From the NCBI GenBank assembly GCA_945872065.1, contig CAMBYH010000010.1, positions 1 to 61,672 of the forward strand: 61,672 bases of DNA. The letters are read 5' to 3'. The translations under genes and the position numbers were made by a program. Position 1 is the stretch's first letter. Every line of letters starts with the position of its first letter. The notes under the pieces were generated by a model. That model had not been told where the DNA came from. It did no database searches and was given only the letters and a program-made list of their open reading frames with translations. This document shows positions 28,543 through 47,090 of the stretch, in pieces. The stretch comes from Arsukibacterium tuosuense. Lineage in GTDB: Bacteria > Pseudomonadota > Gammaproteobacteria > Steroidobacterales > GCA-2729495.

Positions 28543-28565
28543 CAGCATTCCGGAGGACGCTGCCT

Positions 28566-33266: not shown

Positions 33267-33893
33267 TTACGCCTCGACGCCGCAGGTGATCATGCCGTCT
33301 TCCTGCCAGGGGGAGACATACATCTTCACGCCCATGGTGTTGCCGTAGCCGACGAGCCGGGGCGTGGTCCAGGTTTCGTGAATTTCCTGGGGCGTCAGGT
33401 CGAACTGGCCGATCTTGCGGCAGTGGGTGAGTACCCAGCCGAAGGGATCCTTCCAGGTGCGGCTCAGGCCGTCGCCCGAACTGGTCAGGGCGAGCGCGTA
33501 GTGGCAGGCGGTGCGGTCGAATAGCGCGATCACGGCAATCTCCGGATTGCCCGTCTTATCGATGATCTGCTTCATGCGCAGGTTGATCGGTTCCATGTTC
33601 TTGATGTCCATGGCCACGTACTGATCCAGGGCGCCCATGTTCTTGGCGAACTGGATGGCGGTCAGATGGGCCTTGACGAGGGGGTCGTTCATCTCGTGGG
33701 CATAGCCCGCGTGATGGCCCAGCATCTTCAGCAGGATCGACATGGACAGGCCAAGTTCGCCCTCGCGGCCCTCATAGCCACTGAGGGTCTTGTACTGATT
33801 CAGGTTCCCCGTCGCCGCCTGCGGGGGGGCATGGGGCGGAACCTCGGCAATGCTGGGCTTGGTGGCGGTCTGAGTAGCAGTCTGGGCATTCAT
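33267..33893 (-). CDS. Protein of unknown family, paralog 1
   Basis: A 208-residue soluble protein with a disordered Thr/Pro/Ala-rich N-terminus (about 30 residues) and then a compact domain shared with the next gene upstream: GYEGREGELGLSMSILLKML, AHLTAIQFAKNMGALDQYVA, TGNPEIAVIALFDRTACHYA, IGQFDLTPQEIHETWTTPRL and SPWQEDGMITCGVEA. Conserved candidate functional residues between the paralogs are Glu (EGRE), His (AHL), Arg-Thr-x-Cys, His (EIH) and a Cys close to the C-terminus. AGGAG lies about 8 nt before the ATG. I do not recognise the family and assign no function. Confidence 0.75.
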   Translation of the reverse strand: MNAQTATQTATKPSIAEVPPHAPPQAATGNLNQYKTLSGYEGREGELGLSMSILLKMLGHHAGYAHEMNDPLVKAHLTAIQFAKNMGALDQYVAMDIKNMEPINLRMKQIIDKTGNPEIAVIALFDRTACHYALALTSSGDGLSRTWKDPFGWVLTHCRKIGQFDLTPQEIHETWTTPRLVGYGNTMGVKMYVSPWQEDGMITCGVEA

Positions 33894-33950
33894 CGCAACA
33901 CTCCTGATTGAATCACGCGTGCAGTGGTGGGTCTGTGCTGTTTTCGGGGG

Positions 33951-34598
33951 TCAGGCCAGTTCGCAGGACAGCCAGCCGCTGTCCTGCCAGGGAGAGATCT
34001 TCACCTTGATGCCGATGTCGGCGGCGTACCCCTGGATGCGGGGCACCGTCCATTCTGCATGGATTTCCTGCTCGGTCAGATCAAACTGGCCGAGGCGTTT
34101 GCCCATTTCCAGGACGGTGTGAAAGGGCGAGCGCCAGGAGCGCCGGCCCGGCTCTACGGTCCACTCCAGCACCAGCTGGTACCAGCAGTCTGTCCGTTCA
34201 AAGAGGCCGACCAGCCCGTACTCGGGATTACCGGTTCTGGCGACCAGCTGACCGACCCGCTTGTTGATGGGGGCAAGGGTCTTGACGTCGTGGGCCACCA
34301 GCTGGGGCAGCATGCCGTGGTTCTTGGCAAACTGGATGGCGTTCAGGTGGGCCTTCAGGGCCGCGTCATTGAGGTGATGCTGGTAGGGGGCGTCGGCAAT
34401 CACCGTCTTGAGCAGCTGCACGAGGCCCCGGCCCAGGAGTTCCTCCCGGCCCTCAAAGCCGGACCAGAGGCCAAAGTCCTGGACGGTCGGCATGGCGGGG
34501 GGTGCCTGCCCCGGGACGGCGACTGGGGGTCCCGCGGGCTTCTGGGCGGCCGGCAAGGCCGGGGCTGCGTTCCTTAGGGTGCGGGCGGGTTCGGCCAT
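33951..34598 (-). CDS. Protein of unknown family, paralog 2
   Basis: A 215-residue paralog of the preceding entry, upstream of it in the same transcript (57-bp gap). It shares GFEGREELLGRGLVQLLKTV, KAHLNAIQFAKNHGMLPQLV, TGNPEYGLVGLFERTDCWYQ and GQFDLTEQEIHAEWTVPRIQ, with a Pro/Ala-rich N-terminus of about 55 residues. I start at MAEPART because GAGGAG is 9-10 nt upstream; the frame extends further up with an Arg-rich non-conserved stretch. It is divergent from the first Rieske oxygenase gene across 177 bp, in which I see no clear sigma-70 promoter. Confidence 0.75.
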   Translation of the reverse strand: MAEPARTLRNAAPALPAAQKPAGPPVAVPGQAPPAMPTVQDFGLWSGFEGREELLGRGLVQLLKTVIADAPYQHHLNDAALKAHLNAIQFAKNHGMLPQLVAHDVKTLAPINKRVGQLVARTGNPEYGLVGLFERTDCWYQLVLEWTVEPGRRSWRSPFHTVLEMGKRLGQFDLTEQEIHAEWTVPRIQGYAADIGIKVKISPWQDSGWLSCELA

Positions 34599-34775
34599 GG
34601 CAGGCGCTCCTCGAGGTTTATCCACGCAGCCAATCCTACGCCGGAACTGCTTCATTCGCCGGCGGCGGCCGTTCGGTTCCCGCTCCGGCCGCACCGCGAA
34701 CCGGGCCGCAGGGCCCTGCCGCCCGCCGCCTTGCCTGTGCGACTATTTCGTTAACTTAAGCTCGGGCGGTCCGCC

Positions 34776-35924
34776 ATGTACATCAACTTCTGGTATCCCG
34801 TAGTCCTCAGCAAGGATCTGGATGACAAGCCCAGGGTCGTCAGGATCCTGAGCCTGGATTTTGCCGTGTTCCGGGACAGCCAGGGCAGGGCCCAGGTGCT
34901 CGCCAACATCTGCCCCCACCGGGGCGGATCCCTGGCCGGCGGCAAGGTCAAGGGCGACAACCTGCAGTGCCCGTATCACGGCTGGCAGTTCGACGGCACG
35001 GGGCAGTGCCACAAGATTCCCTCGCTGGGTTCCGCCGCCCGCATCCCGGCCCGAACCCGGGTGGATGGCTACCCCGTCGTGGAGAAGTACGGGATCGTGT
35101 TCGCGTTCCTCGGCGATCTGCCCGAGGCCGAGCGGCCGCCGATGCTGGAGGTGCCCGAGTTCGACCGGGAGGGCTGGCGGGCCACCTGGATGAATTTCCA
35201 GATTCCCTACAGCTACGAGCGGTCGGTGGAGAACGGCCTCGATGCCGCCCACAACGAGTTTGTGCATCCCACCCACGGCTTCTCCGGGGAAAGCACCGAG
35301 TACAAGGTGAATGACCTCCGGTGGGTCGGTGACCCGGAGTGGGGTGTCGGTTTCTTTACCAAATTCAAGTCGCCGGCCTCCAAGGATGGCGAGTTCGCTA
35401 AAATGAAGCAGGCGAGCGACTCCCGGGAAGCGGGCACCGGCGTCATCGGGCCAAACGGGGTGTGGACCTATATCAAGTTCGCCGTCGACAAGAGAATGCA
35501 CCAGTACATGTGGGAGGCGCCCATTGATGAGCACACCACCAACATCTTCTTCATGAACATGCGGTCCACCTTCCTCGACGCGGAGATGGACCAGAAGGTC
35601 AACGAGATGAACTGGATGATCGCCGCCCAGGACATCACGGTGCTCTCGGCCCTCCAGCCACCCCTGACGCCCGAGACCAATACAAAAGAATTTATGGTTC
35701 CCGCTGACGAGCCGATCCTGCGCTACCGCAAGAAGCTCAAGGAGTGGGAGCAGCGGGGCTGGCGCATTGACATGGCCGAACTCAATCGCCAGCGGCAGCG
35801 GGTTGCCTGCGCGATTCCCGGGCCGGAACGGCGCAATCACAAGGGCTGGGTCCTGGATTCGGTGCCCCTGGTGGCGCCTTCCCGGCAGTCCGCGGCCGAA
35901 CTCAAGGCCGCGGCGGAGCACTAG
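34776..35924 (+). CDS. Rieske non-haem iron oxygenase, paralog 1
   Basis: A 382-residue oxygenase component. The Rieske [2Fe-2S] ligands are C46/H48 (CPHRGGSLAGGKVKGD) and C65/H68 (QCPYHGWQFDG). The catalytic iron site is in NGLDAAHNEFVHPTHG, with bridging D156 and ligands H159 and H164; a later AAQD probably gives the third ligand. It would use electrons from a reductase, not seen nearby, to hydroxylate or demethylate an organic substrate. The N-terminus and length match the second Rieske protein at 43.1 kb closely, so the two are recent paralogs or a heteromeric pair. Cytoplasmic. Confidence 0.9.
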   Translation: MYINFWYPVVLSKDLDDKPRVVRILSLDFAVFRDSQGRAQVLANICPHRGGSLAGGKVKGDNLQCPYHGWQFDGTGQCHKIPSLGSAARIPARTRVDGYPVVEKYGIVFAFLGDLPEAERPPMLEVPEFDREGWRATWMNFQIPYSYERSVENGLDAAHNEFVHPTHGFSGESTEYKVNDLRWVGDPEWGVGFFTKFKSPASKDGEFAKMKQASDSREAGTGVIGPNGVWTYIKFAVDKRMHQYMWEAPIDEHTTNIFFMNMRSTFLDAEMDQKVNEMNWMIAAQDITVLSALQPPLTPETNTKEFMVPADEPILRYRKKLKEWEQRGWRIDMAELNRQRQRVACAIPGPERRNHKGWVLDSVPLVAPSRQSAAELKAAAEH

Positions 35925-36002
35925 CCTGGCAACCGCATCTGCGCCGCTTGCGGGCCGCGCAGTTCGGTGGAACTATGACGCACCTTTAGGGGAGAACACT
36001 CG

Positions 36003-36653
36003 ATGGCACAGGCGACGGCCGCCAAGAATTACGCTGGCGTATGGGATAACCGGCTCGGCTTCGGCAAGAAAACCGCGCTGCTGGTCATCGACCTGCTCCA
36101 GGGCTACACGCTGCAAGGCGCCCCACTGTTCGCGCCGGGGGTCGTCAAGGCGGTCGCCGAAATGCCGGCCCTCCTGAAGGCGGCGCGGGCGAAGAAAATG
36201 CCCATCATCCACACCCGCGTGTTCTACAACCCGTCGGACTTTGCGGATGGCGGCATCTGGATCAAGAAGGCCCCGGTCCTGAAGAGCCTGGTGCCCGGTA
36301 ACAAGTACGCCCAGTTCTGCAAGGGCGTCGAGCCGAAGAAGGGCGAGCTGGTCATCGTGAAGAACTACGCCAGCTGCTTCTTCGGCACGTCACTGGCCGC
36401 CACGCTGACCGCCATGGGTGTCGACACGGTCATGATCACCGGTTGCACAACATCCGGCTGTATCCGGGCCTCGGCCGTGGACGCGGTGCAGAACGGCTTT
36501 CGCCCGATTGTGGTGCGGGAGTGCGTGGGGGATCGCCACGACGGGCCCCACGAAGCCAATCTCTTCGACATCAACGCCAAGTACGGTGATGTGATCAGCA
36601 AGGCGGAAGCAATGAAGCACATCAAAGGCCTCAAACGGCAGGAGCGCCTGTAG
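36003..36653 (+). CDS. Isochorismatase-like cysteine hydrolase
   Basis: A 216-residue hydrolase with the family triad D30 (LLVIDLLQG), K120 (VIVKNYAS) and nucleophile C153 (TTSGCIRASAVDA). The family hydrolyses amides and carbamoyl groups: nicotinamide, N-carbamoylsarcosine, ureidoacrylate and biuret. The RECVGDRH segment after the nucleophile resembles the N-carbamoylsarcosine amidase branch. AGGGGAG lies about 7 nt before the ATG. It lies between a Rieske oxygenase and a PuuE-like deacetylase. The TAG stop is from a dispersed repeat. Confidence 0.87.
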   Translation: MAQATAAKNYAGVWDNRLGFGKKTALLVIDLLQGYTLQGAPLFAPGVVKAVAEMPALLKAARAKKMPIIHTRVFYNPSDFADGGIWIKKAPVLKSLVPGNKYAQFCKGVEPKKGELVIVKNYASCFFGTSLAATLTAMGVDTVMITGCTTSGCIRASAVDAVQNGFRPIVVRECVGDRHDGPHEANLFDINAKYGDVISKAEAMKHIKGLKRQERL

Positions 36654-36724
36654 GAGCGCCTTTAGGCGCGATAAATTAAATCGCGATAAGTTTAAGTATT
36701 GAATCGCGGCTGAAGCCGCTCCAA
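36649..36724. repeat. Inverted pair of dispersed arms with a 30-nt AT-rich spacer
   Basis: A forward arm at 36649-36672 (tgtaggagcgcctttaggcg) and a reverse arm of a different subtype at 36702-36724 (gaatcgcggctgaagccgct). The spacer is unusually AT-rich for this region (aaattaaatcgcgataagtt). The forward arm gives the stop codon of the cysteine hydrolase. Confidence 0.65.
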
Positions 36725-36756
36725 CAGCAAGAAACATACAACAGGGAAACGAAACC

Positions 36757-37668
36757 ATGGCAACGAAACCCGAAAAAGTCGACCGCAGCAAGCTCACCCA
36801 GAGCCCGCACTATGACTACGTGCCGATCATCGACCGGCCCAAGTTCAAGCTCCCGAAGGGTGCGCGGGTGGCGGTGCTGCCGTATATCAACATCGAGCAC
36901 TTCCCTCATAACGTGCCCGGTACCGCCATTATTCCCGGCACCCAGCAGTTCAATCCGGATCCGCTGAACTATGGCTGGCGGGACTACGGCAACCGGGTTG
37001 GCCTCTGGAGGATGATCGAGCTGATGGACCAGCTCGGCATGCGTGGCACGGTGTGCCTGAATTCCGAGATCATTCGCGAGTATCCGCGCATCGTCGAGGA
37101 AACCAACAAGCGCAAGTGGGCCTTCATCGGTCACGGCATCAACAACGCTCCGGCGAATTTCCTGTCCGGTATCGACGAGAAGAAGGAACGGGAGATCATC
37201 GGCAGCGTACTGCAGGCCATGGAGAAGGCGATCGGTCGCAAGACCAAGGGCTGGCTCTCGCCGTTCCTGACGCACACCAACAACACGCCGAATATCCTGG
37301 CTGAATTTGGCGTTGAGTACCTGTGCGATTACACGGCGGACGATCACCCGTTCCCCTTCAACGTCAAGAAGGGCAGCCTGATCTCGGTGCCCTACACCGT
37401 AGAGCTGAACGACATTCCGGCGTTTGCCAACGCCGGCGTCAGTTCCGAGGCCTTTGGCGACATGATCGTTGACCAGTTCGATGTGCTCTACGACGAGGGT
37501 GCCGACAACGCCCGCTGCATGCCGATCTGCCTGCATACGTTCTGGGTCGGCCAGCCCAACAAGTTCAAGCACCTCAAGCGCGCCTTCGCGCATATCGCCA
37601 GCCATAAAGACGTGTGGATGGCGACGGGCGATGAGGTGAACGACTGGTACCGGAAGAGCTACAAATAA
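36757..37668 (+). CDS. Polysaccharide deacetylase-fold protein, PuuE-like
   Basis: A 303-residue NodB-fold protein without signal peptide, so cytoplasmic. Conserved segments: VAVLPYINIEHFPH, PDPLNYGWRDYGNRVGLWRM, RGTVCLNSEIIREYPRIVEE, WAFIGHGINNAPANFLSGID and GWLSPFLTHTNNTPNILAEF. This is the PuuE branch of the family, in which members act as allantoinases or amidases on small N-rich molecules and not on polysaccharide. The DYGNRVG segment is typical of that branch. AGGGA lies about 10 nt upstream. It precedes an 88-residue protein and a bicupin in one transcript. Confidence 0.85.
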   Translation: MATKPEKVDRSKLTQSPHYDYVPIIDRPKFKLPKGARVAVLPYINIEHFPHNVPGTAIIPGTQQFNPDPLNYGWRDYGNRVGLWRMIELMDQLGMRGTVCLNSEIIREYPRIVEETNKRKWAFIGHGINNAPANFLSGIDEKKEREIIGSVLQAMEKAIGRKTKGWLSPFLTHTNNTPNILAEFGVEYLCDYTADDHPFPFNVKKGSLISVPYTVELNDIPAFANAGVSSEAFGDMIVDQFDVLYDEGADNARCMPICLHTFWVGQPNKFKHLKRAFAHIASHKDVWMATGDEVNDWYRKSYK

Positions 37669-37686
37669 GGATTGGGAAGCGCAGAT

Positions 37687-37953
37687 ATGACCAAGCGAGT
37701 ACAGGACGCGAAGCCAGCCCGGTCGAAGGACACGGACGCCTGGTTCAAGGAGAACGTGGCGGAGCAGAAGAAGCGCTACGCGGCGATTGTGCAGGAGCAG
37801 GATGGCCTGGCAGCCCAGCGCGAGAAGTGGGTTGAGGCTTTCCTGCAGATCATCCAGACCAAGGGTTTCAACGTAAACGGCGATACCCGGCGGGTGATCA
37901 AGCCCAGCGAGATTGCCAAGAAGCCCAAGGGTAAGCATCAGGTCGTCTTCTAA
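37687..37953 (+). CDS. Small conserved-looking protein (88 residues)
   Basis: A Lys/Glu-rich, probably helical protein (DAWFKENVAEQKKRYAAIVQ, ending in KKPKGKHQVVF). No Cys and no membrane segment. It begins 18 nt after the deacetylase gene and ends 44 nt before the bicupin gene, all on one strand, so it is likely part of the same functional unit. I do not recognise the family. Confidence 0.65.
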   Translation: MTKRVQDAKPARSKDTDAWFKENVAEQKKRYAAIVQEQDGLAAQREKWVEAFLQIIQTKGFNVNGDTRRVIKPSEIAKKPKGKHQVVF

Positions 37954-37997
37954 CAGAGGCGCGCAAGTCGTCGTAAGGATTTTAAGGAGTAGTTTTC

Positions 37998-38951
37998 GTG
38001 GCACGACCGCATATTGAGCCGTACGTTGAACTTGACCACCCGTTCAAGAAGTTTGGCGTCTCCGGCTTCAAGGGCAGCAACTACAAGGTGCTGTCACTGG
38101 ACACCGATACCGGTGCCTGCACCCTCAAGGTGCGCTTTGACGGTGGCTTCAAGCGCAAGCCGGGCCTGAGCTACTCCGACATGGAGATCTTCGTCCTGAA
38201 CGGGAAGATCAAGGTCGGCAAGCAGACCTGGAGCGAAGGGCACTATGCCTTTATTCCCGCCGGCATGGCCGTGGGGGCCATCGAGGTGTCCCAGGGCGCA
38301 GAGGCGCTGCTGATGTTCAACGACAGTGAGCCGAGCTTTGTGGAGTCCGACAAGAACCACCAGCTGGCCCTCACCGACGCGTTTTCGTCAGTCAACAGCT
38401 ATGAGGACAAGCCCTGGGGTGGCGGCAGCATCGTCTCGCCGTCCGTGGCCACGGGCTGCCTGATCAAGCTGCTGCACTTCGATCCGCTCACGGAGGCGCT
38501 GAGCTTCCTGTACTGCATGACGCCGCGGTTCGCCCAGGACAACATTTCTTACCACGACAGCGCCGAGGAGTCGTACCACATCTGGGGCACGTCCTGGATG
38601 ATGCAGTTCGGCGAGCTGCCGACCGGCGGCTACTTCTGGCGGCCGCCCTACATCAACCACGGCTCTTTCCGCTGCAAGTACGGCACCATTGCCTTTGGCC
38701 GTACCGACTCGGTGCTGTTCAACTACTTCCACTTCAATCCCTGGACCAATCCGGACGAGAACAAGCTGCGCGCAGCCTCCACGCTGTATCGCAAGCGTCC
38801 GCAGCTTTACCAGTGGGCGGCCTCCGACGGCCACAACCACCCCCACGGGCCGCCGGACTTCGAGAATGCGGATTACCACAGTGACCCGCAGGTGCGGATG
38901 CTGCACGGTGAACCGGTGGGCGGCAGCGTCGGCAAAAAACGCCGCAAGTAG
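37998..38951 (+). CDS. Bicupin protein (DUF4437/ureidoglycine aminohydrolase-like)
   Basis: A 317-residue two-cupin protein, GTG start with AAGGAG 10 nt upstream. The first cupin covers about residues 50-115 (MEIFVLNGKIKVGKQTWSEG, HYAFIPAGM) and the second about 165-260 (ISYHDSAEESYHIWGTSWMM, FWRPPYINHGSF). In the second module His/Glu of YHDSAEESYH and NHG are likely metal ligands. Bicupins of this shape include DUF4437 enzymes and (S)-ureidoglycine aminohydrolase. It follows the PuuE-like gene, which fits a ureide-type reaction series. Stop from a repeat; a strong terminator follows. Confidence 0.8.
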   Translation: MARPHIEPYVELDHPFKKFGVSGFKGSNYKVLSLDTDTGACTLKVRFDGGFKRKPGLSYSDMEIFVLNGKIKVGKQTWSEGHYAFIPAGMAVGAIEVSQGAEALLMFNDSEPSFVESDKNHQLALTDAFSSVNSYEDKPWGGGSIVSPSVATGCLIKLLHFDPLTEALSFLYCMTPRFAQDNISYHDSAEESYHIWGTSWMMQFGELPTGGYFWRPPYINHGSFRCKYGTIAFGRTDSVLFNYFHFNPWTNPDENKLRAASTLYRKRPQLYQWAASDGHNHPHGPPDFENADYHSDPQVRMLHGEPVGGSVGKKRRK

Positions 38952-38970
38952 GAGCGCCTTGAGGCGCGAG
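38948..38970 (+). repeat. Dispersed gtaggagcg-type repeat arm
   Basis: gtaggagcgccttgaggcgc followed by gag; supplies the TAG stop of the bicupin gene and lies immediately before the terminator hairpin. Confidence 0.6.
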
Positions 38971-38974
38971 AGAG

Positions 38975-39006
38975 AACGGCGGGCAGCAATGCCCGCCGTT
39001 TTTTTT
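38975..39006 (+). terminator. Rho-independent terminator
   Basis: Stem aacggcgggca with tgcccgccgtt (11 bp) around a gcaa loop, ending in a run of eight T (38999-39006). It ends the Rieske-hydrolase-deacetylase-bicupin transcript. The T tract overlaps the stop codon of the convergent nhaA gene. Confidence 0.9.
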
Positions 39007-40183
39007 AGGCCCGGACCACCTGGTCGTCATTGCGCAGGAGCAGGGCTCCCAGCGTGAGTCCAACGACCGCCGACACCAGCGACCCGCCGAGCACGCCGAG
39101 CTTCATGGAGTCGAGCAGCACTCCCTCTTCAAAGGCCAGGCTGCCGATGAAGATCGACATCGTAAAACCGATGCCGGCGAGAGCGCCGATGACCGCGATG
39201 CCCCCCCAGCCGACGCCGGCAGGCAGCGTGATGAGGCCGAGGCGCTCTGCCAACCAGCTGGCCGCCAGAATGCCGAGGGGCTTGCCCAGTACAAGGCCCA
39301 GGACCACCCCCGTGAAGATATCCAGCGCCAGCTTGTCCCCCAGCGGATTGCCTGCGATGTTCACCCCCGCGTTGGCCAGGGCAAACACCGGCATGACCAG
39401 GAACGTGCTCCAGCCGTGCAGGCGTTCCTGCAGCCAGACCACTGGCGGACGCAAGTCGTCGCCAGGGCGCGGCGCGGAATTGGCGACTGCCGGTGTGAGT
39501 AATCCGACGACCACACCGCCCACCGACGGGTGGATCCCTGCCTGCAGAAGGCCAAACCAGATCACCGCGCCGGGGACCACGTAGACCAGCGGTCGCCAGA
39601 TCCCCAGTCGTTGCAGCGCGAAGACGGCGAGGATGCCGGCCGCGCTGATGCCAATGCCCGTCAGGGTGACGCCGTCGGAGTAGACAAAGGCGATGATCAG
39701 GATGGCGGCAATATCGTCAATGATCGCGACAGACAGCAGCAGGATGCGCAGCGCCGGTGGCACACGCTTGCCGAGCAGGGCGAGCACGCCAACGGCGAAG
39801 GCGATGTCTGTCGCCGTCGGTACGGCCCAGCCGGGGCGGGCGACGGGATCCGAATTCCAGGCCAGGTAGAGCAAGGCGGGCAGAAGGACGCCACCCAGCG
39901 CGGCGATCAGCGGCAGGGCTGCCTGCCGCCGGTCGGCCAGAGTCCCGTCGTGCAGTTCCCGGCGGATCTCGAGGCCCACGACAAAAAAGAACAGCGTCAT
40001 CAGGCCGTCGTTGATCAGGAAGTGGAGGTCCGGGCGCAGGCCGATAGCCGGCAGGGTCACGCCGGCGTGCCACAGCGCCTGATAGCTGTCCGCCCAGGGC
40101 GAGTTTGCCCAGAGCAGGGCAACGCCAGCCGCCGCCAGCAGCACGATGCCGCCAGCCGCGTCGGAGTGCAGGAGAGCCTTCAG
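39005..40183 (-). CDS. nhaA: Na+/H+ antiporter NhaA
   Basis: A twelve-helix antiporter. Key features: the paired aspartates in LLSVAIIDDIAAILIIAF (D163/D164 of E. coli), the helix 8 IHPSVGGVVVGLL and GLVLGKPLGILA. It exchanges cytoplasmic Na+ for H+. The first usual start codon in frame is a GTG at 40144, but the codons above it read KALLHSDAAGGIVLLAAAG, the conserved NhaA N-terminus. I therefore start at a CTG preceded by GAGGA 6-7 nt upstream, giving 392 residues against 388 in E. coli. This CTG lies in a degenerate repeat arm. It is 10 bp after the amidohydrolase stop. Confidence 0.9.
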   Translation of the reverse strand: MKALLHSDAAGGIVLLAAAGVALLWANSPWADSYQALWHAGVTLPAIGLRPDLHFLINDGLMTLFFFVVGLEIRRELHDGTLADRRQAALPLIAALGGVLLPALLYLAWNSDPVARPGWAVPTATDIAFAVGVLALLGKRVPPALRILLLSVAIIDDIAAILIIAFVYSDGVTLTGIGISAAGILAVFALQRLGIWRPLVYVVPGAVIWFGLLQAGIHPSVGGVVVGLLTPAVANSAPRPGDDLRPPVVWLQERLHGWSTFLVMPVFALANAGVNIAGNPLGDKLALDIFTGVVLGLVLGKPLGILAASWLAERLGLITLPAGVGWGGIAVIGALAGIGFTMSIFIGSLAFEEGVLLDSMKLGVLGGSLVSAVVGLTLGALLLRNDDQVVRA

Positions 40184-40190
40184 GCGCGAT
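40169..40190 (-). repeat. Degenerate dispersed repeat arm at the nhaA start
   Basis: caggagagccttcaggcgcg on the plus strand, resembling the caggagcgcc-ttcaggcgcga type arm with one lost pair. It overlaps the predicted first codons of nhaA. Confidence 0.4.
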
Positions 40191-40193
40191 TCC

Positions 40194-41696
40194 TCAGCCG
40201 CCAGCCTTTAGAAGGGCAAAGAATTCCCGCCGCGTCTGCGGCCCGTAGGTGAGGTAAGTCGGGTCCGGCTGTTCGGCATTGATGCCCTTGGCTTTCTGCA
40301 GGGTGTCCGCCAGGAAGCTCTGGCGGATATCAGTGACGTCAAGGCCGTAGGGCTTCAGGGCATTAAGCCCGAATACCTTGGCGCGGAGTTCTGGCGTCAT
40401 CGCGGGGTAGCCAAACTTTTCCTGGTACTCCCGGCTGATCTGGAAGGTCCGGAAGGCCTGAATCTGGTCCTGGGGTGAGCCGTACCAGATCGAGTCGGTG
40501 CCCCAGACGACGTTGTTCTCACCCACGTACTTGAAGAGCTTGCCCATGGCATGAGCCGCCTCATTGGGGTCTTTCATCAGGTAACGCCAGGTGGTGCCCA
40601 GTTCGGCATAGACGTTGCTGTTGGGCTTCACACCGTTGTCCTGCAGCGACTGGATCAGGGAGTCGATGCCGATCTCATGCTTGCCGGGCACGAACTCCTC
40701 GCCACGAAACTTCAGATCGTAGCCGGAGTGGTAGATGATGAAATTGATGTCCGGGTTCTGGCGCGCGGCCTTGCCCACGTCGCCGCAGCCGCCGAACTTC
40801 CGGTTCTTGCCGGTCATGAAGGGCGTTGGCAGGGGCACACCCTTGTGGATACAGATGGTCTTCACGCCGGTCTTGCGCGCCATCTCGATCAGGCGGGCAC
40901 CGTGCTCCTCGTCATCCAGCCACCAGCCCGTTTCGCCGGCCGGGTCGGCCTGGGTGTAGGTCTTCCAGGCCGAGACCTTCCACTTCTCGGCAAGTTCCGG
41001 CATGCGCTCGATGTCGCCTGCGACGTTGGGCACCACACGCCCGTGCACCAGCAGGCGATGACCATCGTTCATGGCCGCGACCATCTCCCGGGTGGCTTCC
41101 GCCTCGTCCTGGGTCAGGGGCATGTCTTCGTAGGTCGTGGGCGTGAAGGTCAGCACCGCCATGTCGGTGTCACTGTCCAGGAACATCTCCTTGACGAAGG
41201 CCTGGCTGGTGAAGCACTTCATATGGCCATACTCGGACTTGGGATCCAGGTAGGCGCACTTGGACTGGGGCATGAACTTGAGGCCCGTGGCCGTCAGCAT
41301 GTTCGGCGCTTTCCAGCGCTCCAGCGCATTCACGTGGTGGCCCTGGATGTCGAAGATGAACTCCCGCTTGGCGAGGGTGGCGTCGGCAGCGCCCCCGTCC
41401 AGCGCAGCGAGCTGCGGGATGTCGTAAAAGCTGCCCGTCTTGCCCAGCGCCGCGTGCACCTCGTTGAAGGCCAGCAGGGTGGTGGCGGCGCCGGCAGAAC
41501 TCGTGAGGAAGTTGCGTCGGCTGAGGCCCAGGCGCCGGGCATTGATCCCCACCTGCTCGACCGCGCGCTCGTTGGCGAGAACGCTGTGGCGTTCCAGGGG
41601 CCGCGGTACAAACTCCCCGTTGCTGGTTGTGTCCAGCTTGATGGGCAGGCGCGTGCCCTCGGGATCGAAGCGCGACGTATCCTGTTTCCGGGCCAT
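40194..41696 (-). CDS. Tat-exported amidohydrolase (amidohydrolase-2 family)
   Basis: A 500-residue TIM-barrel hydrolase. A twin-arginine motif GLSRRNFLTSSAGAATTLLA starts near residue 57, after an unusually long N-terminal region. Metal-site segments are FDIQGHHVNALE (early His pair), ICIHKGVPLP, IIYHSGYD and WGTDSIWYGSP (final Asp). Family members decarboxylate or hydrolyse aromatic acids and lactones in a metal-dependent way. Export is predicted to be folded and metal-loaded. GGGAGAG lies about 6 nt before the ATG. Its role with the neighbouring Rieske enzymes is inferred from location. Confidence 0.87.
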   Translation of the reverse strand: MARKQDTSRFDPEGTRLPIKLDTTSNGEFVPRPLERHSVLANERAVEQVGINARRLGLSRRNFLTSSAGAATTLLAFNEVHAALGKTGSFYDIPQLAALDGGAADATLAKREFIFDIQGHHVNALERWKAPNMLTATGLKFMPQSKCAYLDPKSEYGHMKCFTSQAFVKEMFLDSDTDMAVLTFTPTTYEDMPLTQDEAEATREMVAAMNDGHRLLVHGRVVPNVAGDIERMPELAEKWKVSAWKTYTQADPAGETGWWLDDEEHGARLIEMARKTGVKTICIHKGVPLPTPFMTGKNRKFGGCGDVGKAARQNPDINFIIYHSGYDLKFRGEEFVPGKHEIGIDSLIQSLQDNGVKPNSNVYAELGTTWRYLMKDPNEAAHAMGKLFKYVGENNVVWGTDSIWYGSPQDQIQAFRTFQISREYQEKFGYPAMTPELRAKVFGLNALKPYGLDVTDIRQSFLADTLQKAKGINAEQPDPTYLTYGPQTRREFFALLKAGG

Positions 41697-41803
41697 GGCA
41701 GCTCTCCCTGAAGAGTTTTTACGCGGAGGCCAAACCTTAGCCTATCCACGTTTAGGTCGCACGGTGCGGCGCCAGCGCTGCCACGCCGTGGCCATCGGTT
41801 AGG

Positions 41804-43003
41804 ATGACGCTCATGCCCATCCTGCTGCTGACGATCCTCCTGTCCGGGATGGGCTTTGGCCTCATCCTGCCCGGCTTTCCCTTTGTCGCCGAGAAACTGG
41901 GGGTGCCCCACTGGGCAGGGCCGATGATGCTGGGCCTGTATGCCATCGGGCAGTTCATTGCGACGCCCTTCTGGGGCCGGTACAGCGACCGCTTTGGCCG
42001 GCGGCCCATGCTCCTCGGCAGCATTGCCGGCGGCGTGGTGGGCCACCTGATCTGTGCTTTCGCACCCGACCCCTACATCCTGGCCGCCGGCCGGTTGTTG
42101 ACGGGACTCATGGGGGGCAATGTCGCGGTGGCCATGGCCTATGCGGCGGACATCTCGCCGCCGGACCAGCGGGCCAAGACCCTGGGCCGGGTGGGGGCGG
42201 CGCTGTCTCTTGGTTTCATTGTCGGGCCGATGGTCGGGGGGCTGCTGGGCGGCGCTGACGCGGCCTCTGCGACACTACTCTGGCCCGGCCTGGCGGCGGC
42301 CTCCGTCTGCTTCATGGCCCTCTGCGGTGCCTTCTTCTTTCTCCGCGAGAGCCTGCCCCCCGAGAAGCGCGCCGGCGCCAATAAGCTAAGCGACCCGGCC
42401 GCCCAGCCGGTTGGCTTTCGCCAGGTCCTCAAGCGGCCGGTGCTGGGCTCGCTGCTGGCGGTCGGCTTCCTGGCCTACCTGGCCATGGCGGCCTTCGAGA
42501 CCAACTTCCCCTTCTGGGCAGGCGACCGCTTTGGCTGGGGTCCCCGGGAGATTGGCCTGTCCTTTACCTATCTGGCCGTGCTGGTGGTGACCACCCAGGG
42601 GCTGCTCGTCGGGCCGCTGGTGAAACGCTTCGGCGAGAAGCGGCTGCTGATTGGCGGACTGGCGTCTTATGTCATCGGGCTGCTGGTGATGACCCAGTCG
42701 CTCTTCTGGGGGCTCATGCTCTTCGGCATCACCTTCACGACCACCGGCAGTGCGCTTTATATGGCCACCGTGAACAGCCTGGTGTCGAAGCAGGCCGGCG
42801 AGTCCGAGCAGGGCCTGGTGCTGGGCACCTTCAACACGGCGAGCTGGTTCGGTCGGGCCCTGGGGCCGGGGATAATCGCCCTGCTCGGCGTCGCGGGCCT
42901 GGGCCGGGATGCACCGCTGTTTGCCGCCGCCCTTATCTTGCTGCCCTGCATTGCCATAGTCCGGGGTCTGCGGTCCCGGGCGGCAGGGGTTGCAGAGCGC
43001 TGA
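41804..43003 (+). CDS. MFS efflux-type transporter
   Basis: A 399-residue twelve-helix MFS protein. The loop 2-3 motif GRYSDRFGRRPMLLG and helix 5 motif LGFIVGPMVGGLLGG place it with TetA/Bcr-like H+ antiporters (DHA1). Either ATG 1 or the ATG 9 nt downstream could start it; TAGGA is better spaced for the second. It is divergent from the amidohydrolase gene and precedes the second Rieske gene by 90 bp. It could export a product or toxic intermediate of the local pathway. Confidence 0.87.
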   Translation: MTLMPILLLTILLSGMGFGLILPGFPFVAEKLGVPHWAGPMMLGLYAIGQFIATPFWGRYSDRFGRRPMLLGSIAGGVVGHLICAFAPDPYILAAGRLLTGLMGGNVAVAMAYAADISPPDQRAKTLGRVGAALSLGFIVGPMVGGLLGGADAASATLLWPGLAAASVCFMALCGAFFFLRESLPPEKRAGANKLSDPAAQPVGFRQVLKRPVLGSLLAVGFLAYLAMAAFETNFPFWAGDRFGWGPREIGLSFTYLAVLVVTTQGLLVGPLVKRFGEKRLLIGGLASYVIGLLVMTQSLFWGLMLFGITFTTTGSALYMATVNSLVSKQAGESEQGLVLGTFNTASWFGRALGPGIIALLGVAGLGRDAPLFAAALILLPCIAIVRGLRSRAAGVAER

Positions 43004-43093
43004 GCTGGCCCCCGGGCGCCGTCCGTGCTGCTTGGCGACGGGTCGCCGCCGGCCTATAGTTCACGCAGTTAAAAACACTGGTAAGCCACGCGC

Positions 43094-44245
43094 ATGTATA
43101 TCAATTTCTGGTACCCGATGACGTCCACGGTGGAGCTGACCGACCAGCCCCTGAAGGTCCGGGCCCTCGGTCAGGACTTTGTGGTCTACCGGGACACCCA
43201 GGGCAAGGCCCACTGCCTGGCCAACACCTGCACGCATCGCGGCGGCTCCCTCGCCGGGGGCAAGGTCAAGGGCGACTGCATCCAGTGCCCGTACCACGGC
43301 TGGCAGTTCGACGGTGAGGGCAACTGCACGCGGATTCCGTCCCTGGGCAGCAAGGCAAGCATCCCGGGCCGCACCCGCATCGATGCGTACCCCGTGGACG
43401 AGCGTTACGGCCTGGTCTTCGCGTTCCTGGGCGACCTCCCCGAGGCCGAGCGCCCGCCAATCCTGGCCGTGCAGGAGTGGGAGGAGCCCGGCTGGCGCTC
43501 CACACTCCAGCATTTTCAGCTCAACGGCTATTACGAGCGCTCGATTGAGAACGGCCTGGACCCGGCGCACAACGAGTACGTGCACGATACCCACGGCTTC
43601 AGTGGCGAGCGCGAGGATATCTACAACATCGGCGACATGCGCATCCAGGACGGTGGCATCTGGGGTAAGGGCTTCTGGCACACCTTCCAGGCACCCCCGC
43701 TGCCCGGCGAGCTCAAGAAATTCCGTCCGGGCGAAGGCACGCTGGAGGCGGGCACCGGTTATCACGGCACTAATCACGTCTGGACTTACATCCACCCGAG
43801 TCCGACGTTCTTCATTCACCAGTACCTCTACGAACGGCCTATCGACGAGAAGAGCACCCATCTCTATCTGGTCTGTGCCCGCAACTTCTCCATAGAGGAA
43901 AAGTCGGACGCCTATGTCAAGGAGCGCAACCAGTACGTGGCGAACCAGGACGTCAAGATCATTGAGAACCTGCGGCCTGCGATAACGCCGGACAAGAACA
44001 CGAGGGAGTTCATGGTCCCGGCCGATTCGGTCATCCTGGAGTACCGGGCCAAGCAGAAGGAGTGGGCCGCGAAGGGCTGGAAAATCGATATGGAAGAGGT
44101 GGCGCGCACCGCCAGTCGTGTGGCCTATGCCATTCCGAGCCCGGCGCGGCGCCAGACCAAGGGCTGGGTGCTGGACTCTATTCCCATTGTCGACCCGGCG
44201 AAGTATGCCGAGGCGGCGGGGGATCTGAAGGCCGTGAGCGGCTAG
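43094..44245 (+). CDS. Rieske non-haem iron oxygenase, paralog 2
   Basis: A 383-residue oxygenase that matches the protein at 34.8 kb through most of its length (shared MYINFWYP, HRGGSLAGGKVKGD, CPYHGWQFDG, FAFLGDLPEAERPP). Rieske ligands are Cys/His in NTCTHRGG and QCPYHGW; the iron site is NGLDPAHNEYVHDTHG with the downstream VANQD. Both are the same length, so neither is a truncated copy. The substrate-pocket half after residue 170 differs much more than the Rieske half, consistent with different substrates. The following exported SDR gene begins 16 nt later. Confidence 0.9.
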   Translation: MYINFWYPMTSTVELTDQPLKVRALGQDFVVYRDTQGKAHCLANTCTHRGGSLAGGKVKGDCIQCPYHGWQFDGEGNCTRIPSLGSKASIPGRTRIDAYPVDERYGLVFAFLGDLPEAERPPILAVQEWEEPGWRSTLQHFQLNGYYERSIENGLDPAHNEYVHDTHGFSGEREDIYNIGDMRIQDGGIWGKGFWHTFQAPPLPGELKKFRPGEGTLEAGTGYHGTNHVWTYIHPSPTFFIHQYLYERPIDEKSTHLYLVCARNFSIEEKSDAYVKERNQYVANQDVKIIENLRPAITPDKNTREFMVPADSVILEYRAKQKEWAAKGWKIDMEEVARTASRVAYAIPSPARRQTKGWVLDSIPIVDPAKYAEAAGDLKAVSG

Positions 44246-44261
44246 CCGCAGGGCTGCCCCC

Positions 44262-45107
44262 GTGGCGGAGCAGGACGGATCGAGCGGCCGGCGCGAGTTT
44301 CTGCGTGGGGCCGCGCTGCTCGCGGCGCTTGGGCCCCTGGTCGAGCGCCTGTCTGCTGCCGAGTCCCCCTTGCCACCGGTCACGCTGCCTGCCTCCGCGG
44401 GTCCGCCCACCGTCCTGATCACCGGTTCCAACCGCGGCATCGGTCTGGAGTTCGCGCGACGCTACGCCGAGCGGGGCTGGCGCGTACTGGCCACGTGCCG
44501 GAGCCCGGCGGCGGCACCAGAACTGCAAGCCCTGGCGAAGAAGTTCCCCCTGCTGAGCGTCGAGACCCTGGATGTGCTGGATCACGTGGGGGTCGATGCA
44601 CTGGCGCAGCAGTTTGCGGCTCTGCCCATTGATGTGTTGCTGAACAACGCGGGCATCGGCGGCGGTGGCGACAACCAGCTGTTCACCAGGCTCAACTACG
44701 ACGTCTTTTATGAAGTGATGGCGGTCAATGCCGTGGGCCCCATCAAGGTCTGCGAGGCATTCCTCAAGAATGTCCAGGCCAGCAGGCAGAAGAAGATGAT
44801 CACCGTGTCCAGCAGCCAGGGATCCATCGGCAGCGTCGATTCACCCCGGCTCTACTGGTACCGGGCCAGCAAGTCGGCCGTGAACATGGTGATGGTGAAT
44901 CTGGCCTTCCAGTTGAAGAGCCGCGGCATCACCATTGGCCTCGTCACACCCGGAGCCACCGACACTGACTTCATGAAGGGCCTGCCAAAGCGCATGCTGC
45001 GGCCCGTGGCGGACGCGGTGAACGACATGCTGCGGGAGATCGACCGCTTTGATATCGCGCGCACGGGGCAGTTCGTCGATACGACCGGGGACATATTGCC
45101 CTGGTAA
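44262..45107 (+). CDS. Tat-signal short-chain dehydrogenase/reductase, paralog 1
   Basis: A 281-residue SDR preceded by a twin-arginine signal (GRREFLRGAALLAALGPL). The Rossmann motif is ITGSNRGIGLEF, followed by NNAG, the catalytic Ser in VSSSQGSIGS and YRASK. SDRs use NAD(P)H, which is cytoplasmic; a Tat signal would let the enzyme be exported folded with a bound cofactor. GTG start, 16 nt after the Rieske gene. The stop lies in a 28-bp palindrome. A paralog follows. Confidence 0.85.
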   Translation: MAEQDGSSGRREFLRGAALLAALGPLVERLSAAESPLPPVTLPASAGPPTVLITGSNRGIGLEFARRYAERGWRVLATCRSPAAAPELQALAKKFPLLSVETLDVLDHVGVDALAQQFAALPIDVLLNNAGIGGGGDNQLFTRLNYDVFYEVMAVNAVGPIKVCEAFLKNVQASRQKKMITVSSSQGSIGSVDSPRLYWYRASKSAVNMVMVNLAFQLKSRGITIGLVTPGATDTDFMKGLPKRMLRPVADAVNDMLREIDRFDIARTGQFVDTTGDILPW

Positions 45108-45130
45108 GGGCGCCGACCGGCGCCCTTACC
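45103..45130. repeat. 28-bp perfect palindrome with 12-bp stem
   Basis: ggtaagggcgcc-gacc-ggcgcccttacc, a variant of the dispersed repeat. It contains the TAA stop of the first SDR gene. No T tract follows, so its role may be mRNA 3' end protection more than termination. Confidence 0.6.
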
Positions 45131-45169
45131 ATTGGCGCCAGATCCAGAAGAATGACCAGGAGAATAGCC

Positions 45170-46030
45170 ATGACCACCACCCGTCGACTTGCCACCGTGC
45201 TGCTCGCCACGATCGTCCTCAACGTCGGCGGGGTCGCTACGGCCCAGGCAGGAGCCCACACCTCAGCAGAACCCGCCCCGGTGAGCGCAGCGCCTGCGGT
45301 GCCGAGGCCGGAGGGCTACGTGCCGACAGTGCTGGTGACAGGCGCGAACCGGGGCATCGGCCTGGAGCTGACCCGCCAGTATGCAGCCCGGGGCTGGAAG
45401 GTCATCGGGACGGCCCGGAAGCCCGCCGAGGCGAAGGAGCTCAACGCACTGGCGGCCGCTAGTGATGGCAGGGTGGTAGTGGAGGGTCTGGATGTCATGG
45501 ACCTCGCGGCCATCGATGCGCTGGCCCAGAAGTACGCCGGTAAATCCGTGGACATTCTCTTCAACAATGCCGGCGTTACGGGCGGCGGTGCCAACCAGCA
45601 GTTCGCCAAGAACATGCATTGGGAGCTGTTTGATTCCGTCCACCGCACCAATGTTGTGGGGCCGCTGAAGCTGGCTGAGGCCTTCCTGCCGAACCTGCTC
45701 GCAGGCTACGAGAAGAAGATCAGCAACGTCTCCAGCAGCCAGGGGTCCATCGGGACCACGAAGACGGGCACCTTGTACATCTACCGGTCCAGCAAGGCGG
45801 CGCTGAACATGGTCATGGTCAATCTGGCCAATCAGCTGAAGAGCAAGGGTATTGCTGTCGCGCTGATCGACCCGGGTCCCGTGGACACCGACATGATGGC
45901 CAGCCTGCCCAAGAAGATGCTCCGGCCCGTGACCACGGCCGGCAGCGACCTGATCCGCATTACCGATCAGCTCACGGTGCAGAACACCGGAACTTACTGG
46001 ACCTTCGACGGCACCGTGCTGCCCTGGTAG
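45170..46030 (+). CDS. Exported short-chain dehydrogenase/reductase, paralog 2
   Basis: A 286-residue SDR with a Sec-type signal (RRLATVLLATIVLNVGGVAT, then AQA). The Rossmann motif is VTGANRGIGLEL, with NNAGVTGGG, Ser in VSSSQGSIGT and YRSSK. It is a close paralog of the gene upstream. AGGAGA lies 7-8 nt before the chosen ATG; an in-frame ATG 18 nt upstream lies before this Shine-Dalgarno. Sec export unfolds the protein, so a periplasmic NAD(P) enzyme is unexpected; the N-terminal segment could instead be a membrane anchor. Confidence 0.85.
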   Translation: MTTTRRLATVLLATIVLNVGGVATAQAGAHTSAEPAPVSAAPAVPRPEGYVPTVLVTGANRGIGLELTRQYAARGWKVIGTARKPAEAKELNALAAASDGRVVVEGLDVMDLAAIDALAQKYAGKSVDILFNNAGVTGGGANQQFAKNMHWELFDSVHRTNVVGPLKLAEAFLPNLLAGYEKKISNVSSSQGSIGTTKTGTLYIYRSSKAALNMVMVNLANQLKSKGIAVALIDPGPVDTDMMASLPKKMLRPVTTAGSDLIRITDQLTVQNTGTYWTFDGTVLPW

Positions 46031-46036
46031 GGGCCC

Positions 46037-46114
46037 GCGGCAGCCCGGCCGGGATCCCGTCCGCTACCGTGAGTACACGGTGAGCGCGGACGGGACACCC
46101 GGCCACGCTGCCGC
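46037..46114. repeat. 78-bp palindromic element, copy B
   Basis: The same 78-bp architecture as 2599-2676: gcggcagc (46037-46044) with gctgccgc (46107-46114), ggccggg with cccggcc, tcccgtccgc with gcggacggga, and accgtg-agta-cacggt at the tip. Relative to copy A, two base pairs in the third stem have changed on both sides, so pairing is kept. It starts 6 nt after the SDR stop and lies between convergent genes. Confidence 0.75.
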
Positions 46115-46139
46115 TGCACTCCCAGTTAACCCGGCAGAG

Positions 46140-47090
46140 TTAACCGGGGTACTGGGCGAGTCCGGCGAGTGAGCGCAGGGCGCCGGTTTCGGCCTTGGCC
46201 ACTATGGCCCCGGTGGCGAGGCTGAACTTCGCTACGGTACCGGTAAAGAAGTTGCCGAGCAGTACCGTGTCTGCTTCCGTTGACTGCCCCAAGGCGGCCC
46301 AGCCGGGGCCGGGGAGGGGATATTCGCGCAGGACGGCACCCGTCTCGCTCAGGTGCTCCAGGAAGAAGCCCGCCTTGAAGTTCGCCCGGATGTGCAGCAG
46401 CTTGCCGTCCGGGGTGTACATGACCGTCATGGCCATGTTGCCGCTGTCCGGTGCGTAGGTGACCAGGTTGGGCAGTGGCTTGTCGTTGGCCACGTCCCAG
46501 CAGCGAATGCTGTCGCTGAGTTCCGAGAGATAGAGGATCGACTTGCCGTCCGCGCGCAGCGCTGCGCCCGTCAGCCCGAGGAAGCCCGGCATGCCGCCAT
46601 GGACAGGCGTTTTGAACTCCTTCAGCAGTTTGCCGTCCTGGGTGAACTGGCAAAGCAGGCCGTCGCCGAACCGGTCAGTGCCCGGGAGCAGAGGGAGGGT
46701 GGTGCCCAGGGTGGTGCCGGGCCGGGTCCGCACTGTGTTGCCGACCAGGTGTTCGCCCAGGTAAATCGTGCCGTCTTGCGCGAAATTGATATTGGAGAAC
46801 GCCCGGTCAGCGAACTTGATGTGGGGCAGCTGCTTGCCCTGGGGGCTGACGCGCAGCACCTTGAAGCTGTTGCTGTCGAAGCCCCAGAGGGTGCCATCCG
46901 GGGCAAAGGCGAGGCCGCCGATAAGGTGGGTAGTACCCTCGGTCCAGAGGATGCCTTTTTCGTTGAGATTGCTGTCGTACTGGATGATCCGGCCATCGCC
47001 CGCGTGGTCGTCTTCCGGTCGGTTCAGGACCGTGGCGCCGGCGAAAATGTCGCCCTTGGCAAAGGGCTTGAGAGTGGACGCGTTGGTCAT
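46140..47090 (-). CDS. SMP-30/gluconolactonase-like beta-propeller protein
   Basis: A 316-residue protein with repeated propeller blades: GGLAFAPDGTLWGFDSNSFK, NINFAQDGTIYLGEHLVGN, GAALRADGKSILYLSELSDS and VMYTPDGKLLHIRANFKAG. It has no signal peptide. SMP-30-like proteins are lactonases or sugar-lactone hydrolases; several are simply binding proteins, so hydrolase activity here is a guess. GGAG lies about 7 nt before the ATG. It is divergent from DAHP synthase. Confidence 0.75.
   Translation of the reverse strand: MTNASTLKPFAKGDIFAGATVLNRPEDDHAGDGRIIQYDSNLNEKGILWTEGTTHLIGGLAFAPDGTLWGFDSNSFKVLRVSPQGKQLPHIKFADRAFSNINFAQDGTIYLGEHLVGNTVRTRPGTTLGTTLPLLPGTDRFGDGLLCQFTQDGKLLKEFKTPVHGGMPGFLGLTGAALRADGKSILYLSELSDSIRCWDVANDKPLPNLVTYAPDSGNMAMTVMYTPDGKLLHIRANFKAGFFLEHLSETGAVLREYPLPGPGWAALGQSTEADTVLLGNFFTGTVAKFSLATGAIVAKAETGALRSLAGLAQYPG

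Follow-up and report, generated by a model that had tools for sequence, protein, structure and literature searches.

The window, a stretch of 61,672 nucleotides from Arsukibacterium tuosuense (GenBank contig CAMBYH010000010.1; contig C10 of a 2.71-Mb genome in 130 contigs, rated 100% complete), carries a gene block that is conserved across an uncultivated bacterial family and includes an isochorismatase-family amidohydrolase (CysH), a PuuE-like ring hydrolase (DEAC), an 88-residue protein (E88), and a bicupin (CUP). From conserved synteny, paralogy, family assignments, and genome-wide co-occurrence, we infer the substrate and every catalytic step proposed below: the window would hold the upper half of a pathway that degrades an N-heterocycle of the cyclic amide or imide type, a reading to which we give a probability of about 0.5. 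Judging from the sequences, the substrate most likely belongs to the cyclic-imide- or lactam-type N-heterocycles. The catabolic system is conserved, and the literature searched describes neither its substrate nor several of its protein families. An earlier note on this DNA knew of no described pathway with such a combination of gene families, and our literature search likewise found none: no paper in it brought together five or more of six words for these gene families.

In the proposed pathway, a TonB-dependent receptor and a major facilitator superfamily (MFS) carrier would take up the compound, and Rieske oxygenases and exported short-chain dehydrogenases/reductases (SDRs), plus a molybdenum hydroxylase in some relatives, would oxidise it. 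DEAC would then open the ring and CysH would hydrolyse the resulting amide, so that the nitrogen leaves as ammonia, while E88 and CUP would share a joint step, perhaps with CUP as a metal cupin and E88 as its small partner. On another contig, a lower module would finish the job: a LeuCD-like enzyme would hydrate a substituted maleate, a CaiB-like enzyme would load coenzyme A (CoA), and an HMG-CoA-lyase-like protein (HMGL) would perform the cleavage. HydAB, on contig C1, may open lactam rings. The LeuCD, CoA-transferase, and lyase steps suggest a substituted maleate, which would make cyclic imides, above all five-membered ones, more likely than ureides. The analysis places E88 with CUP, and A1 with its paralog A2, two protein families so far uncharacterised, in a catabolic gene neighbourhood, and it links them to a plasmid island from whose enzymes a concrete, testable order of reactions can be suggested.

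E88 occurs in 75 of 296 genomes of the same order, spread over 20 of 68 genera; besides the window's own genome, 31 of the 75 belong to its family, and the main locus was fetched from 19 of these. CysH, DEAC, E88, and CUP are all kept in 15 of these 19 loci, and the remaining genes were counted among those 15 using tblastn identity cut-offs of 40% for flanking genes and 45% for the core, contig ends not being adjusted for. Since 11 of the 40 regions fetched around E88 measure less than 20 kb, the counts given for flanking genes are minimum values. Three own-family loci (L058, L077, and L078; two second E88 copies and one 4.3-kb contig) were excluded from the 19, and no CysH or DEAC was seen at any of them. 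The genes of the window, whose proteins were assigned to families using Pfam and NCBIfam, are given below, with counts out of 15 referring to the related loci just described.

26773..28548, minus strand: FAD_binding_2 flavoprotein, flavocytochrome c/ketosteroid-dehydrogenase superfamily; optional upstream member, 7/15
28566..30887, plus strand: molybdenum hydroxylase large subunit, xanthine dehydrogenase-like; optional upstream member, 5/15
30926..33151, minus strand: TonB-dependent receptor, 12/15
33267..33893, minus strand: A1, uncharacterised family, predicted TRAPP/Bet3-like fold, 13/15
33951..34598, minus strand: A2, paralog of A1 (46% identity), 1/15 at 40% identity or more
34776..35924, plus strand: R1, Rieske oxygenase of VanA_C type, 2/15
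36003..36653, plus strand: CysH, isochorismatase-family amidohydrolase with D30-K120-C153 (Pfam, residue alignment)
36757..37668, plus strand: DEAC, putative PuuE-like ring hydrolase, polysaccharide deacetylase family (Pfam/NCBIfam, structure homology)
37687..37953, plus strand: E88, 88-residue protein without known family, predicted helical hairpin and beta hairpin
37998..38951, plus strand: CUP, bicupin DUF4437/Cupin_7, with E88 adjacent in 76/79 loci
39005-40144: NhaA antiporter, between CUP and AMH, 0/15
40194..41696, minus strand: AMH, Amidohydro_2 protein with an internal twin-arginine signal, 5/15
41804..43003, plus strand: MFS transporter, best NCBIfam match the Tet efflux group (below cut-off), 13/15
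43094..44245, plus strand: R2, Rieske oxygenase of VanA_C type, 11/15
44262..45107, plus strand: S1, SDR with a twin-arginine signal; at least one of S1 and S2 in 9/15
45152..46030, plus strand: S2, SDR with a Sec-type signal; counted together with S1
46140..47090, minus strand: PROP, SMP-30/propeller-like protein, weak SGL match (14 bits, cut-off 26.3), 11/15

The conserved unit reaches left to the TonB receptor and at times takes in the FAD protein and the molybdenum hydroxylase. DAHP synthase adjoins in 9 of the 15 loci and is treated as a neighbour, not a member; NhaA, a TupA-like protein, and ADH were rejected as members (0/15 each). All open reading frames (ORFs) that the earlier note named were found in place in the window, and much of the gene set it listed is kept together across relatives, NhaA being a bystander. 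Its idea of a dedicated pathway is supported by the neighbourhood kept in 15 of 19 own-family loci and by the presence of the E88-CUP core in records titled Gamma-, Alpha-, and Betaproteobacteria. As for gene starts, an upstream TTG gives an alternative 93-amino-acid ORF for E88, the 88-residue form beginning at ATG 37687, and A2 most likely starts at ATG 34598 (215 amino acids).

Conservation is widest for E88 and CUP, followed by CysH and DEAC. A scan with CUP only gave 215 confirmed relatives, and the best 80 of these yielded 79 named loci, several of which are the same contigs as the own-family genomes. At 76 of the 79, E88 immediately precedes CUP and shares its strand, with a gap of 14-182 bp (median 58). 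In two of the three exceptions (L089 and L101) the CUP match starts within 190 bases of the contig start, and the third (L126) showed no E88. The loci occur in records titled Gamma-, Alpha-, and Betaproteobacteria, with E88-CUP common to Woeseiaceae, SAR92, Porticoccaceae, Kordiimonas, Rhodoferax, and Rubrivivax, and most records are metagenome-assembled. A second E88-CUP locus in MAG-239 (L077/L082) stands beside SDR (56%), HapK-like (47%), and methyltransferase (38%) genes that resemble those of pJE1.

The second half of CUP is strongly conserved, with several invariant histidines, and no mention of DUF4437 was found in the literature searched. E88 has no family match in Pfam or NCBIfam. Its structure model, a helical hairpin plus a beta hairpin, has a predicted local distance difference test (pLDDT) score of 89 and a predicted template modelling (pTM) score of 0.59; the better of its two Foldseek matches had E 2.8, and no solved structure matched at Z 2 or above. 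In a phylum-wide draw of 398 genomes, E88 and A1 were each found in one genome, the window's own, and since the draw skipped groups that carry E88, this indicates rarity, not absence. Near E88 in 27 loci there is also a likely membrane protein with a histidine-rich loop (e.g., L106:5020-5742), which by eye resembles nickel/cobalt permeases; neither the L106 protein nor another member of its cluster gave a family match.

Around E88-CUP in other lineages, the recurring genes are CoA-transferase III, Amidohydro_2, a GntR/UTRA regulator, LeuC- and LeuD-like proteins, HydA/HydB, CN_hydrolase, HMGL, CysH, and often two DEAC paralogs. Plasmid pJE1 of Sphingomonas sp. JE1 was reached through a remote homolog of the cupin, and its first 45 kb (L177, NZ_KM017071.1) form an island with two PuuE-like proteins, two LeuCD pairs, HMGL, CaiB, an isochorismatase, HydAB, and a lyase related to methylisocitrate/dimethylmalate lyases. 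Identity to genes of E88 loci is 73% for the isochorismatase, 69% for HMGL, 66% for HydA, 64% for LeuC2, 63% for HydB, 61% for CaiB, 59% for PuuEb, and 45% for PuuEa, and at least three homologs of the island at 45% identity or more are present in 18 of the 79 named loci. The best match of the CoA-transferases is succinate-glutarate CoA-transferase, far below cut-off.

A similar island lies on plasmid pTomTYG65b of Sphingobium sp. TomTYG65 (L178). Both islands resemble the E88 neighbourhoods in their TonB receptor, GntR regulator, PuuE-like pair, isochorismatase, LeuCD, CaiB, HMGL, and cupin, with HydAB seen on pJE1; they differ in that no E88 was found on plasmids, and the pJE1 cupin is only 27.5% identical to CUP. 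The 2,3-dimethylmalate and methylisocitrate lyase routes are comparable in that pJE1 has a LeuCD-like hydratase beside an ICL/PEP-mutase-family lyase. However, among the loci compared, this lyase matched only L125 and L060 (one contig, 67%) and L153 (31%). One of the two plasmids is predicted to be mobilizable and the other conjugative. No publication on strain JE1 or pJE1 was found in the literature searched, TomTYG65 not having been searched for.

The window's own genome contains, on another contig, a matching lower module that the earlier note does not cover. At one locus on contig C61 (14 kb), LeuC, LeuD, CaiB, and HMGL are 63%, 58%, 58%, and 67% identical to their pJE1 counterparts, and on contig C1 HydA and HydB are 56% and 63% identical. 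The genome has three Aconitase-family proteins, and because the one on C1 adjoins leucine-biosynthesis genes (by eye), the C61 LeuCD looks like a second, catabolic pair. An HMGL ortholog (identity of at least 52%, all remaining matches being at or below 46%) is present in 68 of 75 genomes with E88 vs 23 of 221 without it (296 genomes, kinship not adjusted for), and outside the window's family in 38 of 43 vs 16 of 213. A control gene, hmgA (homogentisate dioxygenase), does not co-occur with E88 (6/75 vs 53/221), which argues against a general link to catabolic gene content. Some of the HMGL-ortholog matches are reported with one internal stop codon (e.g., G121:C6:329232-330161), which may be an end effect or a sign of broken genes.

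DEAC matches PuuE structures (3s6o, 1z7a, and 3cl6; E 4e-23 to 5e-21) over approximately residues 75-300 and misses the cut-off of the PuuE allantoinase model TIGR03212 (124.3 vs 424.6 bits); by sequence comparison it is a PuuE homolog over the main domain, not a PuuE by score. CysH meets Pfam PF00857 (121.4 bits, cut-off 27), and its residues D30, K120, and C153 align with those of 26st, 3ot4, and 1nba, an Asp-Lys-Cys set that we take to be the triad of isochorismatase-like cysteine amidohydrolases. It misses the NCBIfam equivalog cut-offs for biuret hydrolase (57.8 of 370 bits) and RutB (39.6 of 377.95). Homologs of CysH and DEAC occur together in 27 of the 79 named loci, own-family loci included, and the pair looks like a ring-opening amidohydrolase followed by an amidase. 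Such an imidase-then-amidase pair is described for N-heterocycle catabolism in fungal nicotinate breakdown, where the Aspergillus nidulans imidase HxnM, related to PuuE and to 3qbu, precedes the amidase HxnN; the 3qbu group is itself related to cyclic imidases (PMC9304392). That pathway differs in its six-membered ring, and the parts of the paper drawn on here show no LeuCD, CoA, or HMGL steps.

The same two enzymes could instead serve a ureide or hydantoin route, with DEAC opening a hydantoin, allantoin-like, or dihydropyrimidine ring, CysH hydrolysing the N-carbamoyl product, and LeuCD, CaiB, and HMGL serving the adjoining carbon skeleton. The three superfamilies of the ureide pathway (PuuE allantoinase, UGlyAH cupin, and cysteine hydrolases) are adjacent here too: DEAC is close to PuuE, and CUP shows trace similarity to (S)-ureidoglycine aminohydrolase (TIGR03214, 14.2 bits against a cut-off of 200). 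An AllB/dihydropyrimidinase-like enzyme also occurs at some E88 loci (the cluster in 6; 240.6 of 357.85 bits at L110). Because N-carbamoylsarcosine amidohydrolase is nearest to CysH, a ureide route keeps a share of the probability. However, the window proteins miss the PuuE, UGlyAH, RutB, and biuret-hydrolase equivalog cut-offs widely, and a pure ureide route needs no maleate-type hydratase, CoA-transferase, or lyase, the last of which co-occurs with E88. We consider this route less likely than the imide or lactam one, but a serious rival to it.

In another rival reading, which seems to us rather improbable, the Rieske oxygenases and SDRs would break down a steroid, a terpenoid, or an aromatic, and the role of the C-N hydrolases would be confined to a nitrogen-bearing side group or a conjugate used for transport. 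R1 and R2 match VanA_C and, below its cut-off, a 4beta-methylsterol monooxygenase model, and a flavoprotein of the ketosteroid-dehydrogenase superfamily is nearby, but it is E88/CUP and then CysH/DEAC that are kept most widely, the Rieske genes less so. Outside the window's family, an R2-like gene was seen in the fetched flanks only at L123 and L124. We give still less credence to a pyridine-type catabolism ending in maleamate or maleate, as for nicotinate or vitamin B6. The molybdenum hydroxylase in 5 of the 15 loci would suit it, as would the resemblance of CysH to 3ot4/3uao, which we take to be maleamate amidase (maleamate amidohydrolase) NicF, but maleate itself requires no second hydratase-lyase set, and no ring-cleaving enzyme of those pathways was recognised among the annotated neighbours, many neighbours being unannotated. 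Accidental co-location of unrelated genes, which might be suggested by the non-conserved NhaA, TupA-like, and ADH genes in or beside the interval, is contradicted by synteny, by the E88-HMGL co-occurrence, and by the fact that homologs of these genes do cluster in other genomes, and its probability is negligible.

Several observations weigh against our preferred reading of the window as the upper half of a cyclic-amide or cyclic-imide pathway. The DEAC score is well below the PuuE cut-off, and DEAC is closer to PuuE (78 bits) than to the 3qbu group (27 bits), and the best solved relative of CysH is N-carbamoylsarcosine amidohydrolase (174 bits), followed by 3ot4/3uao (142 bits). The E88-HMGL co-occurrence counts do not adjust for relatedness among genomes, the hmgA control is unevenly spread (one match in the window's family), and there are 23 genomes with an HMGL ortholog and no E88 and 7 with E88 and no HMGL ortholog. 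The pJE1 cupin is remote, and E88 matched no plasmid at E≤1e-5, pJE1 included. Finally, second E88 copies exist with no CysH or DEAC nearby (L077) or with no recognised CUP (L078).

Chemical logic would point to fragments of tetrapyrroles, among other dialkyl-maleimides, as substrates. The breakdown of chlorophyll and heme yields dialkyl-maleimides as well as hematinic acid. It is conceivable, if doubtful, that this pathway serves to mineralise pyrrole rings from tetrapyrroles such as bilins and chlorophyll catabolites, via pyrrolinones and dialkyl-maleimides. Imidases and the cysteine hydrolase would convert hematinic acid, methyl-ethyl-maleimide, and methyl-vinyl-maleimide to substituted maleates, the LeuCD-like enzyme would hydrate hematinate, giving a homologue of 2-methylisocitrate with one more carbon, and lyases would yield pyruvate plus glutarate or a butyrate-type acid. 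On pJE1, the PuuE-like proteins, the hydratase pairs, and the lyases each number two, which would fit the two ring types of bilins, and the CoA-transferases have their best match, far below cut-off, in succinate-glutarate CoA-transferase. E88-CUP would be a bilin- or dipyrrole-processing metalloenzyme. Were this true, it would explain how bacteria recycle chlorophyll and heme nitrogen and would provide a route for both the carbon and the nitrogen of these pigments.

The case for tetrapyrroles is purely a chemical one. According to the parts of PMC7318184 drawn on here, both maleimides and hematinic acid had earlier been reported from senescent leaves and lake sediments, and the leaves examined in that study itself contained hematinic acid, with no maleimides detected. 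Marker genes were sought in a set of 44 genomes or records (pJE1, 35 genomes out of the 75 with E88, and eight that underlie named loci). Heme oxygenase (PF01126) was present in 5 of the 44, with 4 over cut-off and the G103 match on another contig than E88, and Staygreen (PF12638) in 0 of the 44, the control genomes being silent too. These searches lend the tetrapyrrole proposal no support and are weak evidence against it. Searches of the literature on imide and bilin degradation gave no bacterial pathway of this make-up among the matches listed.

The earlier note also described three paralog pairs, and these are genuine: amino-acid identity is 46% for A1/A2, 55% for R1/R2, and 48% for S1/S2, and DNA identity is 64%, 69%, and 65%, respectively. 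In a 27-row Rieske tree, R1 clusters with genes from three other loci and R2 falls in a separate group with 13 others. Both groups are well supported, span several genera each, and lie inside this cluster type. S1 and S2 also fall into separate groups in the SDR tree, with weaker support (for both trees, 17 duplicate loci on the same contigs as the own-family set were removed). Because of these splits, the R1/R2 and S1/S2 duplications look old, not recent. R1, A2, and one SDR are frequently absent in relatives (an A2-like fragment is present at L047), so while the paralogy that led to the description 'assembled by duplication' is real, duplication is not the defining trait of the unit. Elsewhere in the 2.7-Mb genome there are further Rieske proteins (15 domain matches in total), several of them 42-54% identical to R1/R2.

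A1 has no Pfam or NCBIfam match at E≤1, and A2 has only sub-threshold ones. The A1 structure model is of moderate confidence (pLDDT 74.2, pTM 0.63), and Foldseek found nothing below E 0.001 (best E 0.026). On re-alignment it reached Z 9.3 to human TPC6 and Z 5.3-8.3 to Bet3, BcsD, H-NOX, YslB, and the aromatic-sensor domains of MopR/PoxR/DmpR, with designed proteins (up to Z 8.3) also among the matches. Most of the natural matches presumably share one fold, and several, we assume, bind small or lipid-like ligands. A1 and A2 are perhaps small-molecule-binding proteins of the TRAPP/Bet3 fold, and a ligand-binding role beside the TonB receptor would be a guess. The window's genome also has a third, more distant gene of the A1 family (L160, G000:C19:27809-28300, 180.8 bits).

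The earlier note's suggestion that the pathway is partly periplasmic holds at the sequence level, with signal peptides called by eye and not by a prediction program. Most of the printed SDR relatives likewise have signal-like N-termini (twin-arginine type for S1, Sec type for S2), and AMH retains its internal twin-arginine stretch in those relatives whose printed part reached that far. It is unusual for NAD(P)-dependent SDRs to lie outside the cytoplasm.

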